A stretch of 64,000 nt of DNA from Terriglobia bacterium (lineage in GTDB: Bacteria; Acidobacteriota; Terriglobia; Terriglobales; Acidobacteriaceae). The stretch's first letter is position 1. Every line of letters starts with the position of its first letter. The stretch is from contig JAIQEU010000009.1 of assembly GCA_020073665.1 (NCBI GenBank), positions 124,001 through 188,000 on the forward strand. Reading direction: 5' to 3'. The notes below the pieces were generated by a model. The model did not search any database. It saw nothing but the letters and a program-made list of their open reading frames with translations, and was not told the origin of the DNA. Of this stretch, positions 16,404-39,375 are shown piece after piece. The position numbers were made by a program, and so were the translations under genes.

Positions 16404-16490
16404 GCCGGGATGGCGGAACTGGCAGACGCAGCGGACTCAAAATCCGCCGGGCTTCGGCCCTTGGGGGTTCGACTCCCCCTCCCGGCACCA
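16404..16490 (+). tRNA. tRNA-Leu (anticodon CAA), likely attachment site
   Basis: Acceptor GCCGGGA pairs with TCCCGGC plus ACCA. The D-arm is GCGGAACTGGCAGACGC. The anticodon arm GCGGA-CTCAAAA-TCCGC gives CAA. The variable arm is CGGGCTTCGGCCCT and the T-arm GGGGG-TTCGACT-CCCCC. All stems are perfect. Its 3' end recurs at 19090-19107 and its 3' half at 39321-39375, as expected for a tRNA gene used as an integration site. Confidence 0.97.
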
Positions 16491-16992
16491 CAATTGTCCA
16501 TTTTAGTTCGAATGGTTTACGAAGAGAATAGAGATCTGCCGGGTTGGTGAGTCCCCCCGTGGCGAACTGCCGACTGTAGTAAAACCGTAGTAATTCTTGA
16601 CAAAAAGTTAGAGACCGTTCCGGTCCCCCGCAGCCCAGCTGCGATCACGTCGGAATCGGGCAGATCCTCTTGAATCCTCAAAGGCTTTCGTCTTTAAAGT
16701 CTGCGGCAGATTGCCCTGGCGTTAAGAATCGGTTACGGAACGGTCGGGAGCGCCGCTCCAGCAAGTGAACCAGAAAACTCTGCAATTGAAGCCGTCGCTA
16801 CACCACCAATCCAAAGTGTTTACGGTCGCGCCATTCGCAGAGCGAGAATTAGTAGTTTTCCACTCACACCTCGATTCCCTTGATGGACGACTTGCTACTG
16901 CTGAGAGGTTACCGAAGTAACTTGCCGCTCTTTAGGCTGCTTCCATAGCGTGGAAGTCAGTTGAGACTGGTCCCCGGCAACAGGAGGATCGG
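16491..16992. other. tRNA-distal flank, partly duplicated at 19108
   Basis: The first about 90 nt (to 16580) align with 19108-19197, sharing GAGTCCCCC and TTTGAATGATTT-like stretches, at roughly two-thirds identity by eye. A TTGACA at about 16598 could be a -35 box, but no matching -10 was seen. No gene recognised. The end holds AGGAGG for the gene at 16993. Confidence 0.55.
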
Positions 16993-18789
16993 ATGTTTAA
17001 GTGGATTACCTTGGGTTTTTTCCTTGGGCTGCTGTTCACAGCATTCAAAGTAAGAGAATTGTATCGCCGCAATAAACAACTCTCCCGCACAGACTCCAAA
17101 ACGGGTGCGTTGAGCGAGCGCGGGTTTATAGAAGCTCTTGGAGACGAAAGCAGGCGCTCGCGCAGAAACCTTCGTCCGCTTACCGTTGCTTACATCGACC
17201 TAGACAACTTCAGACTCGTAAACAGGATTCTAGGCTACAGCGGCGCAGATGAGGTTTTGAGAGTTGTGGCTCGTACCATGCAAAACACTTTGCGCGAAGT
17301 AGATTTTGTCGCTCGTCTCCACGGAGACGAGTTTGCTCTGCTCTTGCCCGAAACGGGCGCGGAAGACGCTCCGTTGGTCCTGGGCAAGCTTCAAAAAGCC
17401 CTTAGGAAGGCGATGGCTGTAAGCCAATGGCCGGTCACATTCAGCATCGGTGCAGTGTCGTTCAACAATCCGCTGGCTACGCCTGACAGCATGATCGAGG
17501 CAACTGCCAACGTGATGCAATCCTCGGCGAAGCAGGGCGGCAAAGACCGTATTCAACACTTGGAGTTCGAATCGCGAGATAAACCGGAGTATCTTGTTGA
17601 GTGCTTAAGCTGCCGAACATCATTTATAGCTACTTCCCACCCCTTCTGTCCTTTCTGTGGAAATGCTGCACTTTCGGACTCGCAGCCAGCACAGACGGAA
17701 GCCACGGAGTCAAAGCGAGTCGCTGGCATCTGCGCGTTTCGGCTCCCACTGGACGACGGAAAAACCATTGAGTTCCATGGCCCTTCTGACATCACCAAGG
17801 AACAGGTGGAAGCAATCGTCAGCGCGGCAAACTCGTCCTTGACGGGGAGTGGCGGGGTTGACAAGGCGATCCATCGCGCCGGTGGCCCGTCGATACTAAC
17901 CGAGTGCAGAAGACTTGCTGCCAGCATGGGACGCCTGCCTGCTGGGAAAGCCGTCCTCACCGCTGGGGGAAGCCTGCCCGCAAAGCACGTAATCCACACG
18001 GTAGGGCCGTTCTACCGCGACGGAAGTCGCGGTGAAGCCGAAATACTTGCGAGTTGTTATCACGAGTGCATCAGACTCAGCGACACTCAGGCGATTACGT
18101 CCCTCGCCTTTCCTTCCATCTCTACCGGGGCGCACGGGTATCCGGTGGGCGAAGCGGCCCGCATTGCCGTTTCTGCGGTTGCTGATGCTTTGGGCGCGAC
18201 CACCCATCTCAGCCATGTTCGTTTCGTACTCTTCGACGAACGCACCCTTGGGGCGTATGTAGCAGCGGCCGAAGAGTTCGCCCTACTCAAGTCTCCCGCC
18301 TCGATGCAGGACCAGTTGACCGGACTGCCCAGCAGACGCCGTCTGTTTGCCGACTTGGATCGTCTCCTCCAAGATCCAGAGCAACGGTTTGCGCTCATGC
18401 TGATGGATTTGGACGATTTCAAGAAAGTGAACGACGAGTATGGTCATTTGACCGGAGACAACGAGCTGCGTGCCCTCGCGCAAGTGCTGTCGAACCGGGC
18501 ACCTACTTACCGACATGGCGGGGATGAGTTTGTCGCTGTTTCACCGTGTGCGGAGAGGCCGGATGCTTTGATCTTGGCTGAGTCGATTCGGGCGGATGTA
18601 GCTCGTCTCGTCTTCGAGGACCATCCAGAACTTAGGTTGACCATCGGTGTGGGAGTGGCTGTCTTTCCCGAGGACGGGAACACTATGGACGAATTGCTGC
18701 GGAGTGCTGACGCGGCGGTTTACGAAGCAAAACGTAATGGCGGTAACTGCGTCAAGACCTGTCGGGACAGGGACGCGAAGACCGCGTGA
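16993..18789 (+). CDS. Membrane-anchored GGDEF-zinc ribbon-macro-GGDEF fusion protein
   Basis: 598 residues. A transmembrane anchor (3-20) is followed by GGDEF domain 1 (about 35-190), with HGDEF at 110-114 in place of GGDEF and an intact RxxD inhibitory-site motif (REVD, 101-104) five residues before it. A zinc ribbon follows (C204, C207, C219, C222). Then comes a MacroD-type macro domain (about 245-430; AANSSLTGSGGVDKAIH, N280 and D290, PAGKAVLTAGG, FPSISTGAHGYP). GGDEF domain 2 (438-590) has DQLTGLPSRR, MDLDDFKKVNDEYGH and canonical GGDEF at 509-513. Domain 2 should make cyclic-di-GMP; domain 1 may only sense it. Macro domains bind or hydrolyse ADP-ribose adducts. AGGAGG precedes the ATG. 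First gene after tRNA-Leu. The architecture is unfamiliar to me. Confidence 0.9.
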   Translation: MFKWITLGFFLGLLFTAFKVRELYRRNKQLSRTDSKTGALSERGFIEALGDESRRSRRNLRPLTVAYIDLDNFRLVNRILGYSGADEVLRVVARTMQNTLREVDFVARLHGDEFALLLPETGAEDAPLVLGKLQKALRKAMAVSQWPVTFSIGAVSFNNPLATPDSMIEATANVMQSSAKQGGKDRIQHLEFESRDKPEYLVECLSCRTSFIATSHPFCPFCGNAALSDSQPAQTEATESKRVAGICAFRLPLDDGKTIEFHGPSDITKEQVEAIVSAANSSLTGSGGVDKAIHRAGGPSILTECRRLAASMGRLPAGKAVLTAGGSLPAKHVIHTVGPFYRDGSRGEAEILASCYHECIRLSDTQAITSLAFPSISTGAHGYPVGEAARIAVSAVADALGATTHLSHVRFVLFDERTLGAYVAAAEEFALLKSPASMQDQLTGLPSRRRLFADLDRLLQDPEQRFALMLMDLDDFKKVNDEYGHLTGDNELRALAQVLSNRAPTYRHGGDEFVAVSPCAERPDALILAESIRADVARLVFEDHPELRLTIGVGVAVFPEDGNTMDELLRSADAAVYEAKRNGGNCVKTCRDRDAKTA

Positions 18790-19089: not shown

Positions 19090-19107
19090 CTCCCCCTCCC
19101 GGCACCA
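19090..19107 (+). repeat. Copy of the tRNA-Leu(CAA) 3' end (attachment-site-like repeat)
   Basis: CTCCCCCTCCCGGCACCA is identical to 16473-16490, the T-arm/acceptor 3' strand and CCA of tRNA-Leu(CAA). The following about 90 nt are a diverged copy of the sequence after the intact tRNA, so a larger junction region is duplicated, not only 18 nt. Confidence 0.75.
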
Positions 19108-19274
19108 GCAGTTGTCCTCTGTATTTTGAATGATTTGCGACTAGCATAAAGGCCCTTTGGGTGGGTGAGTCCCCCGGTGGAAAGTCGCTAACCAGCATAC
19201 CGAGTCTCATTGTTTCGGGAGAGCATCGTTCGACAACTGAGGTGCCGACACCGTTGCGTCATGGTTGGAGAGAG

Positions 19275-20942
19275 TTACTGCCGTACCAGTTCCACGCGGC
19301 GATTGCGGGCGCGACCTTCCAGCGTTTCGTTGGTGTCCACCGGACGTGAAGCGCCGAATCCGGCTGTGGTAAAGCGGCTTGCGGGGATGTCATAATCAGC
19401 GACGAGGGCGTGAACGACCGCCGCTGACCTCCGCTTAGACAAGTCCAGGTTCGATGCATCGCCTCCGATGTTGTCGGTGTTGCCCTCAACGCTCAACTTC
19501 CAGTCTGGATGGTCGCGCATGACCTGCGCAATTTCGGTTAGAACCTTGTCCGATTCAGGACGTAAGGTAGCACTTGCGAAGTCGAAGTATAGGTCGTAAA
19601 TCTTTGCCCGACCGTTCTTCTCCAGTTCGTGTTCGAGTTGATTCGGAGCAGAGTCCTTCGGGGTATCCCAATAGATTTTGATGACCTGTTCGTGGCCGCC
19701 CTCGGTGGAAGCCCCAGCGAGGACCAGGGGATTGTCCGGATCGTCGAGGACATAGAGGTGGCCTTCCTTGTCAGGAAGGCTGACCACGACATCAATGACA
19801 GGCAGTTCAACCGGTTGATCGTTCACCAACACGGGAAAAGCAACGTCGCTGTTGCCATTTCTGCGTAGGGTGCATTTGAGCGGAGGTGTGTCCATCGCTG
19901 GATCGTTGCCGATACCTCCTCCCGGCGCAAAGTTCATCACCTTCTTCATGAGATCCTGGCTGGCTGCATCGCTTGAGTCTTTCGAGTCAGACGCCATCGC
20001 AGTCTTGAACGATTTCAGCAGAGCTTTGAGAGGATCTTCGTGATAGGTGAACTCCGACTGGCCTGTGGTCTTTAGTTCGTTCAGAGTCTTTCTCGACAGA
20101 CTCATCGCAGTGGTTCCAGGATGTTTTTCATCCCTTCCTTCGCGGCACATATAGCCGTCTGTTTCGGAAGAGTTTTCGATGTCGGCCACAAACACGGTCC
20201 GTCCGCATTCGATTTTGCGGGGCTTTTGCGCGTCGTTGGTGCCGCCGCTTAGGAGGCGTTCAATCCCCTGCCCCGGAGGAAATTGCTGGGAAGCGCGAAT
20301 ATGAACGAGTTGGTCCGTCACATTGTCGATAACGAAAATGGATTCGAAGTCTCCGCGCAGTTCGTCAGTTCCGGCGTGCACCAGCCGCAGGGACTTGCGA
20401 AGCGGAATCTTGCTCGACGGCGAGGAGACGAGTTCGGCAGGCGCAGGTTTCCATGCAGGGAGCGGCTGCGGTTTGCTGGTCTGCCCGGTTGCCGCTCCTA
20501 CCATTCCGGCGAGGTCGTCGCTCTTGTATGCCTGCTGAACTTTTTCGATCCGTTGCTTGGCGCGATAGGCGATGTAGGCACAGCTCCCCATCACCAGTAG
20601 CAGAAGCAGCATGCAGAGTGCTACTGCGATCATGACAAATTTCAGGAACTTCCCACCAGACTTCGCTGCCGGCGCAGTTGCCGGAGCAGGGCTGTGCACG
20701 CCCTGAAGCCGCGGAGCAGCCGCGCTTGATGCGCTCGAGGCATTCGTGCTCTCTTGCGCAACTGCAGAGGCGCCGCACTTTTCGCAAAACTTCGCTCCAG
20801 AAGGCAGGGGAGTGCCGCATCCCGTGCAGAAGCGTGGGGAGTATTCTGCGCCGGACGATTCTGCTCTACGCGTGCCGCAGGTCGTGCAGAACGACTGGCC
20901 TTCCGCCAAAGGCGATCCACATTTCACGCAGACGGTGCTCAT
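19275..20942 (-). CDS. OmpA-domain protein with two N-terminal zinc ribbons
   Basis: 555 residues. Two zinc ribbons open the protein (C5, C8, C19, C22 and C39, C42, C53, C56), then an Ala/Pro linker, a transmembrane helix (99-125), a periplasmic region of unknown fold, and a C-terminal OmpA-like peptidoglycan-binding domain (about 445-555; YFDFASATLRPES, VEGNTDNIGG, LSKRRSAAV, GFGASRPV, RARNRRVEL). The topology would place the zinc ribbons in the cytoplasm and the OmpA domain on the cell wall. GAGGGAG precedes the ATG at 20942; the longer frame to 20984 is rejected. It ends the minus-strand arm of the island locus. Confidence 0.9.
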   Translation of the reverse strand: MSTVCVKCGSPLAEGQSFCTTCGTRRAESSGAEYSPRFCTGCGTPLPSGAKFCEKCGASAVAQESTNASSASSAAAPRLQGVHSPAPATAPAAKSGGKFLKFVMIAVALCMLLLLLVMGSCAYIAYRAKQRIEKVQQAYKSDDLAGMVGAATGQTSKPQPLPAWKPAPAELVSSPSSKIPLRKSLRLVHAGTDELRGDFESIFVIDNVTDQLVHIRASQQFPPGQGIERLLSGGTNDAQKPRKIECGRTVFVADIENSSETDGYMCREGRDEKHPGTTAMSLSRKTLNELKTTGQSEFTYHEDPLKALLKSFKTAMASDSKDSSDAASQDLMKKVMNFAPGGGIGNDPAMDTPPLKCTLRRNGNSDVAFPVLVNDQPVELPVIDVVVSLPDKEGHLYVLDDPDNPLVLAGASTEGGHEQVIKIYWDTPKDSAPNQLEHELEKNGRAKIYDLYFDFASATLRPESDKVLTEIAQVMRDHPDWKLSVEGNTDNIGGDASNLDLSKRRSAAVVHALVADYDIPASRFTTAGFGASRPVDTNETLEGRARNRRVELVRQ

Positions 20943-21003
20943 GTTTTCTCCCTCGTGAGGTCGCATGGCGCGACACGGTACCAAGCGAAACCGGACCCGA
21001 CAA

Positions 21004-39025: not shown

Positions 39026-39320
39026 TCTTTGACAGCCTCCACGGTCGCACGGGCCGATTTTGTGGGCACGCCGATAAGCACTTTCCAGTGAGGAGAATAC
39101 CCGAACCCTGCTGAAAAATCTGTGATTGTCGTGATCAGGCGATTACACTCATTGACCTCGGTCATAGGGCAGGGGCGACAAACTGGCGTGAGTTTCTCTG
39201 CCCAAACTCTGCCCAATAGGCCGTCACAGCACCTCACCAAATGGCACCAAACGATACGCTGCAAATTTGCAAGCCCTTGTAAATGCAGTGAATAGTGAGG
39301 TTAGAAATGAATGGGTGGCA
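39026..39320. other. Gene-free right part of the island
   Basis: Contains the second 22-bp repeat (39136-39157) and GCAGTGAATAGTGAGGTT (39285-39302), which nearly matches 36809-36826. No credible gene on either strand. It leads directly into the tRNA relic. Confidence 0.5.
39136..39157 (+). repeat. 22-bp direct repeat, copy 2
   Basis: Identical to 38325-38346 over 22 nt. It lies upstream of the start codon of the small exported protein gene, whereas copy 1 lies past its stop, so the gene is symmetrically enclosed. Confidence 0.75.
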
Positions 39321-39375
39321 CTCAGAATCCGCCGGGCTTCGGCCCTTGGGAGTTCGACTCCCACTTCCGGCACCA
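39321..39375 (+). pseudogene. Decayed 3' half of tRNA-Leu(CAA) (attachment-site remnant)
   Basis: 55 nt aligned without gaps to 16436-16490, from the anticodon loop to CCA, with four substitutions. CTCAAAATCC has become CTCAGAATCC, GGGGG in the T-stem is GGGAG, and CCCCCTCCC is CCCACTTCC, so the T-stem no longer pairs. There is no matching 5' half upstream. Anticodon-loop-to-3'-end is the usual extent of tRNA duplications left by tyrosine-recombinase integration. Confidence 0.85.

Follow-up and report, generated by a model that had tools for sequence, protein, structure and literature searches.

Many diguanylate cyclases carry sensor domains, as in the PAS/GAF-GGDEF proteins, where the sensors are N-terminal, and GGDEF enzymes make a signal for lifestyle switches; those that are feedback-inhibited have an RxxD inhibitory site (I-site) shortly before the GGDEF motif. 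The macro module, for its part, normally recognises fragments of NAD. For the MacroD of O. iheyensis (OiMacroD), the excerpted text of PMC5413906 proposes a mechanism that involves N30, D40, Y134, N27 and H44, and describes a contact between the amide of G36 and D40 in the ligand-free state; according to the same excerpts, the N30A and D40A variants have lowered but not lost activity, and Y126A in YmdB is reported to abolish it. Amongst GGDEF proteins, excerpts of PMC5052742 present PopA as a degenerate member that binds cyclic-di-GMP via an intact I-site. Macro genes have been linked to Thg1 operons, with no GGDEF link in the available portion of that source (PMC2904730), and E. coli YmdB affects biofilm (PMC4222554, in excerpt), in a paper whose available text contains none of the terms di-GMP, diguanyl and GGDEF. 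Within the accessible parts of PMC2904730, PMC7159879, PMC7824862 and PMC9503650 a macro-GGDEF fusion is not described; searching the open-licence literature, we found no paper describing one among the matches listed, nor any description of a diguanylate cyclase that reads NAD-derived ADP-ribose ligands. As a side observation, a Pantoea plasmid (L146:1471-3599) encodes an O-acetyl-ADP-ribose deacetylase and, ~550 bases further along that strand, a diguanylate cyclase, with a short opposite-strand gene in between; this adjacency is possibly due to chance.

Within the window, by which we mean the whole 64,000-nucleotide stretch of DNA analysed here, a gene on the forward strand (16993..18789, +) encodes a protein of 598 aa in which ORF and Pfam analysis places a zinc ribbon and a macro domain, in this order, between two GGDEF domains. 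These coordinates, the strand and the frame were already given in a preliminary description of the DNA and hold: the frame runs unbroken from the ATG at 16993 to the stop at 18789, with an AGGAGG ribosome-binding site (16982..16987, +) five bases 5' of the ATG, and the opposite strand has many stops in the frame read across the gene. All parts lie on the + strand. The protein begins with a hydrophobic segment (residues 2-20; 16996..17052; mean hydropathy 1.5), likely a membrane anchor, followed by GGDEF1 (17071..17562), a four-Cys zinc ribbon (C204, C207, C219 and C222; 17590..17670), a MacroD-type macro domain (S277, N280, S286, D290, H294 and H381; 17728..18291), assigned by Pfam, alignments and a structural model, and finally GGDEF2 (18301..18762), whose canonical active site without an RxxD inhibitory site is seen in the alignment and the predicted fold. 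Pfam scores GGDEF at 206 bits in total over two stretches and Macro (PF01661) at 131 bits over residues 276-392; the zinc ribbon region (199-228) has a weak NOB1-like match below the family cut-off, and is recognised by its Cys pattern. The preliminary description had likewise reported a degenerate GGDEF1 (HGDEF) with its RxxD intact, which we locate as REVD at residues 101-104, the zinc ribbon, with CxxC at 204 and 219, and a MacroD-type macro domain with Ser277, N280 and D290, each of which we confirm. To this our analysis adds G286S and F/Y381H, shows that GGDEF2 lacks an I-site, and identifies relatives for the individual pieces. The gene is interior to a 314,607-base contig; it may originate from an assembly join, and we regard it as near certain that the domain architecture is real. 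Judged by its gene content, the window probably comes from a member of the Acidobacteriota.

How rare is this arrangement? We found the full-length fusion in one of 61 relatives (among the matches listed), one of 398 family genomes and one of 396 phylum genomes, each time the window's own; the three samples overlap, and in the latter two the best three candidates were scored in most genomes. The genus is represented by one genome, which carries it (1/1). None of 72,556 plasmid records and none of 50,697 phage records covers 80% of macro plus GGDEF2, and the zinc-ribbon DNA has no blastn match in plasmids. A close-peptide-word scan of contigs from 84,980 species kept the best 80 of 104 relatives, and among 164 loci no open frame contains both domains except the window's own. 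No macro-GGDEF fusion was seen among 48 viral-contig macro loci, and a viral-contig scan with a single macro sequence returned no match. Given this single occurrence across genome, plasmid, phage and contig searches, the fusion is rare, and that of macro with diguanylate cyclase is so far unique in the collections searched. The preliminary description had considered that the domain pair might prove a widely described architecture; there is no second example in these collections and no describing paper in the open-licence literature, and we reject a widespread architecture, unseen as it is in the genome samples, the plasmids, the phages, the contig scan and the 48 viral-contig loci. Other phyla were covered by the close-peptide-word scan alone, and may contain independent macro-GGDEF fusions.

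The genomic setting was described earlier as the first position after a tRNA, and this stands: ARAGORN calls a tRNA-Leu (anticodon caa; 16404..16490, +), the presumed attachment site, which ends about 502-503 nt before the fusion gene, and repeat searches find its 18-nt 3' end (16473..16490, +) copied exactly at 19090..19107 (+), at the right end of a 2.6-kb segment. Each copy of this direct repeat is followed by a 72-nt stretch (16491..16562 and 19109..19180, both +; 72% identical to one another), and a 56-nt copy of the 3' part of the tRNA, 93% identical, lies ~23 kb after the tRNA at 39320..39375 (+), possibly the far end of a larger island. In the window, the 18-nt tRNA end has three matches at ≤2 mismatches vs 0.02 expected from shuffles. 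Such duplication of the tRNA 3' end, exact over 18 nt at 19090 and 93% identical over 56 nt at 39320, is the pattern of a tRNA-integrated island, and the flanking tRNA-Leu repeats lend support to the locus being a putative island remnant; the tyrosine integrase family PF00589 has 19 matches in the genome and none in the window, so any element is presumably now a remnant. As to the earlier hint of defence cargo, no PADLOC model matches the fusion protein at E 0.001, and the location is its sole support. Use of tRNA-Leu as an attachment site is plausible, and outside the window one copy speaks to it: in a sample of 41 genomes, G021 has an isolated copy of the tRNA-Leu 3' end that breaks off at almost the same point, lies within a contig and has no tRNA gene called there. 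Partial copies in G022 and G024 both stop at contig ends and were dropped. At E 1e-100, none of 60 relatives gives a strong match to the flanking DAO-type gene. Further along, at 19275-20984 (-) of the window, lies a gene whose product combines a double zinc ribbon with an OmpA domain at its C-terminus and, over the OmpA part, weakly matches Zorya ZorB models.

The pieces of the fusion can be traced separately. The anchor-GGDEF1-zinc ribbon module has one close relative, encoded by a TM-GGDEF-zinc ribbon gene in the genome G297 (63.6% over 195 residues), the frame of which ends approximately where the macro domain starts, with similarity reaching residue 252-256 of the fusion protein; upstream, too, a stretch of the window (16909..16952, +) resembles the DNA 5' of this unfused gene (77% over 44 nt). 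The module is matched at E 1e-42 in four of 397 genomes of the order sample, the window's own included, with two of the four matches spanning the GGDEF part only, and in one of 45 genomes of the genus of G297. As tblastn finds no macro remnants behind the G297 gene on its 5,757-base contig, the gene looks unfused; it may also have been truncated before a macro domain. Its surroundings hold, downstream, a transposase-like remnant by frame reading, without a family match, and upstream a 351-aa frame (L224:2655-3707, -) that by eye combines a response regulator with a sigma-like part; a search of 185 aa of this frame against Pfam gave no match.

The macro domain points elsewhere. A search matched 70 loci at E 1e-4, from which 69 frames aligned over >110 residues at E 1e-8; with the window's frame swapped for the fusion-protein segment, this leaves 68 others for comparison. 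The fused domain falls in a clade of 29 rows (support 99/99), and its closest relatives, up to 70% identical (L120), are stand-alone genes. In the window's own genome, a macro gene between pgk and tpiA (L082; G000:C4:113229-113747) has Cys for the catalytic Asp D290 (GGGVC) and belongs to another sub-clade; since it sits in a different clade and has this Cys, within-genome duplication as the macro source was rejected. Neighbouring Pfam families are PGK, TIM and SecG at L082, and PGK and TIM at L120. By tblastn, pgk, macro and tpiA follow one another in order on one strand at 27 of the 28 other clade loci (L119, L120 and L089 included), tpiA being present at all 28; the exception, L133, is macro-tpiA without pgk within 5.3 kb. 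Outside the clade, tpiA is nearby in 10 of the 40 macro rows, nine of which have pgk as well. We found no paper in the open-licence literature that joins macro domain, phosphoglycerate kinase, triosephosphate isomerase and operon, and the pgk-macro-tpiA order in this family poses the question of what role the macro protein performs in a glycolytic operon. Because the closest macro relatives sit in such operons, we considered that the fused domain might read another ligand altogether, namely RNA, a different nucleotide or a glycolysis-linked metabolite. The conserved gene order would fit this, and changes in the pocket could shift specificity; however, no result of the analysis names such a ligand, and the domain shares its fold and most of its pocket residues with ADP-ribose binders, leaving this a very unlikely explanation. 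Since its pieces have separate relatives and its segments differ in GC (0.53, 0.53, 0.60 and 0.57), the fusion gene is, judged from sequence, a composite.

What has become of the macro domain within this composite? Structure prediction, proposed earlier as a check, yielded confident models of both the macro domain and GGDEF2, each from an alignment of its own rows (macro and GGDEF, respectively); a full-length model, built on an alignment with macro rows only, has low-to-moderate confidence outside the macro domain. The AlphaFold macro model has pLDDT blocks of 91-98 across residues 251-430; among solved structures, ADP-ribose-bound OiMacroD ranks first (rmsd 1.4 Å), and the model superposes on YmdB 1spv with rmsd 0.9. 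The pocket keeps N280, D290 and H294 and has three changes: Ser replaces both N277 and G286, and His381 takes the place of the ribose-stacking Phe/Tyr. Of the 68 macro domains used for comparison, 67 have Asn at position 277 (the remaining one has a gap there), all 68 have Gly at 286, and at 381 the residue is Phe/Tyr in 65 and Ala/Gly in three; in the 48 viral-contig macros, the equivalents of 277 and 286 are Asn (48/48) and Gly (46/48), and 381 is Tyr/Phe in 44, His in one, Gly in one and a gap in two. Ser277, Ser286 and His381 occur in none of the stand-alone relatives. By alignment and motif counting, 277, 286 and 381 correspond to N27, G36 and Y134 of OiMacroD, so that of the catalytic set in that enzyme the equivalents of N30, D40 and H44 are kept, with N27 replaced by Ser and Y134 by His.

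With three changes at nearly invariant pocket positions, ligand binding and hydrolysis could both differ from those of a textbook MacroD, and the changes could indeed spoil ligand binding as well as hydrolysis. Nevertheless, given that N280, D290 and H294 are kept alongside S277, S286 and H381, a ligand reader would seem to fit better than an efficient hydrolase. One could also suppose that the protein is a membrane-tethered enzyme pair, in which the macro domain retains ADP-ribosyl or O-acetyl-ADP-ribose hydrolase activity and the cyclase is constitutive, without gating. The three kept residues agree with this, as do the stand-alone MacroD-type genes that are the nearest macro relatives and the reduced activity that OiMacroD retains with N30A or D40A; but the loss of the N27 and Y134 equivalents to Ser and His, that of G36 to Ser, and the inactivity reported for YmdB Y126A (excerpts of PMC5413906, for the variants of both proteins) speak against it, and we consider an ungated pair quite unlikely.

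The main rival to a binder of reduced turnover is relaxed selection, because the macro branch is long (0.62 vs 0.19 and 0.40 in its tree neighbours) and the changed conserved sites do not cluster significantly in the loop (three of four within 275-294, P about 0.10). On this account, the gene would be a young chance fusion, a mosaic from the tRNA island that is functionless in part or in whole, and the pocket changes would be decay. One carrier genome in the samples searched, the long branch, the nearly invariant sites that changed and the segment-wise composition (GC 0.53 to 0.60) are all consistent with decay; against it stand 598 codons without a stop behind a good ribosome-binding site, the surveyed catalytic residues of GGDEF2, kept except at the R446 position, and the zinc ribbon Cys, kept in both the fusion protein and its G297 relative. 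We judge a chance fusion unlikely, and the gene, a lone and fast-evolving example, may be non-functional.

The two GGDEF domains differ in what they have kept. GGDEF2, earlier called canonical (RHGGDEF), is so by our survey: it keeps D472, N480, D489, G509, G510, D511, E512 and K580, and the metal, base and A-site residues surveyed are kept, the exception among the catalytic residues being the position of PleD R446, which is Gly here and likewise in 23 of 97 homologues. The kept D489 presumably argues against the class of cGAMP-making variants. Its predicted fold (pLDDT 92.5) has PleD as the best solved match. Upstream of RHGGDEF there is no RxxD I-site in GGDEF2, where the PleD alignment has a gap. 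GGDEF1 shows the sequence pattern of a degenerate receptor, with a damaged A-site (HGDEF, His for the first glycine) and REVD intact; its G297 relative has QGDEF, with Gln at that glycine, and keeps REVD, and the zinc ribbon Cys pattern is common to both proteins. A catalytic GGDEF2 and a putative receptor GGDEF1 would be the division of labour expected for such a pair, which supports the idea of feedback; the suggestion of the preliminary description that GGDEF1 provides product feedback is thereby backed at the level of sequence.

Taken together, the fusion protein is best interpreted as a diguanylate cyclase in which the macro domain serves as sensor. We infer ligand binding, gating, feedback and enzymatic activity as follows. 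The macro domain would occupy the sensor position right before the catalytic GGDEF2 of a membrane-anchored diguanylate cyclase, and cytosolic ADP-ribose, O-acetyl-ADP-ribose or an ADP-ribosylated partner would bind its pocket; the signal would then pass via the last helix of the macro domain (residues 416-433) and alter the pairing of GGDEF2, and with it cyclic-di-GMP synthesis, whilst the degenerate GGDEF1, with its kept I-site, would bind the product and feed back on GGDEF2, which has no such site of its own. This helix ends about four residues before the start of GGDEF2 (~437), and is a plausible coupling point. A sirtuin is encoded in the window's genome and is a possible source of O-acetyl-ADP-ribose. 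In favour of the gated cyclase are one unbroken frame, a good ribosome-binding site and the kept N280, D290 and H294; against it, the example stands alone, with no orthologue that would reveal selection on the protein as a whole. A possible reading, which we hold tentatively, is that an ADP-ribose-type ligand gates the diguanylate cyclase and that product feedback is built into the protein. Such a fusion could let the metabolic state of the cell set its cyclic-di-GMP signal. If gating holds true, sirtuin or ADP-ribosylation activity would be tied directly to biofilm-type decisions, and the protein would be a natural case of a macro hydrolase turned sensor within a signalling enzyme. The wider proposal, in which a macro domain akin to the hydrolase-like genes in glycolytic operons passed, through its pocket changes, from eraser to reader and founded a new class of input, with ADP-ribose-type products of NAD switching a diguanylate cyclase and an inactive twin domain providing the feedback, is somewhat unlikely in our estimation.

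Each module can be set beside a known system. The fused macro domain resembles E. coli YmdB (138.9 bits against 5cb3), O. iheyensis MacroD and human MACROD1/2 in its fold, its VxAAN and GGVD motifs and its N280, D290 and H294, but departs from them all in that Ser stands in place of the first Asn, Ser286 replaces Gly and His381 the stacking Phe/Tyr, and in that it lies between two GGDEF domains. The stand-alone macros of the pgk-macro-tpiA operons are its closest relatives, yet they are single-domain proteins in a glycolytic context. As in PleD and WspR, a folded domain immediately precedes a C-terminal catalytic GGDEF; unlike in those proteins, the folded domain is a macro domain and the GGDEF that follows has no RxxD site. 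GGDEF1, with its degenerate A-site and kept RxxD, is in turn reminiscent of PopA as presented in excerpts of PMC5052742, and differs from it in that the receptor-like domain shares a chain with a canonical cyclase.
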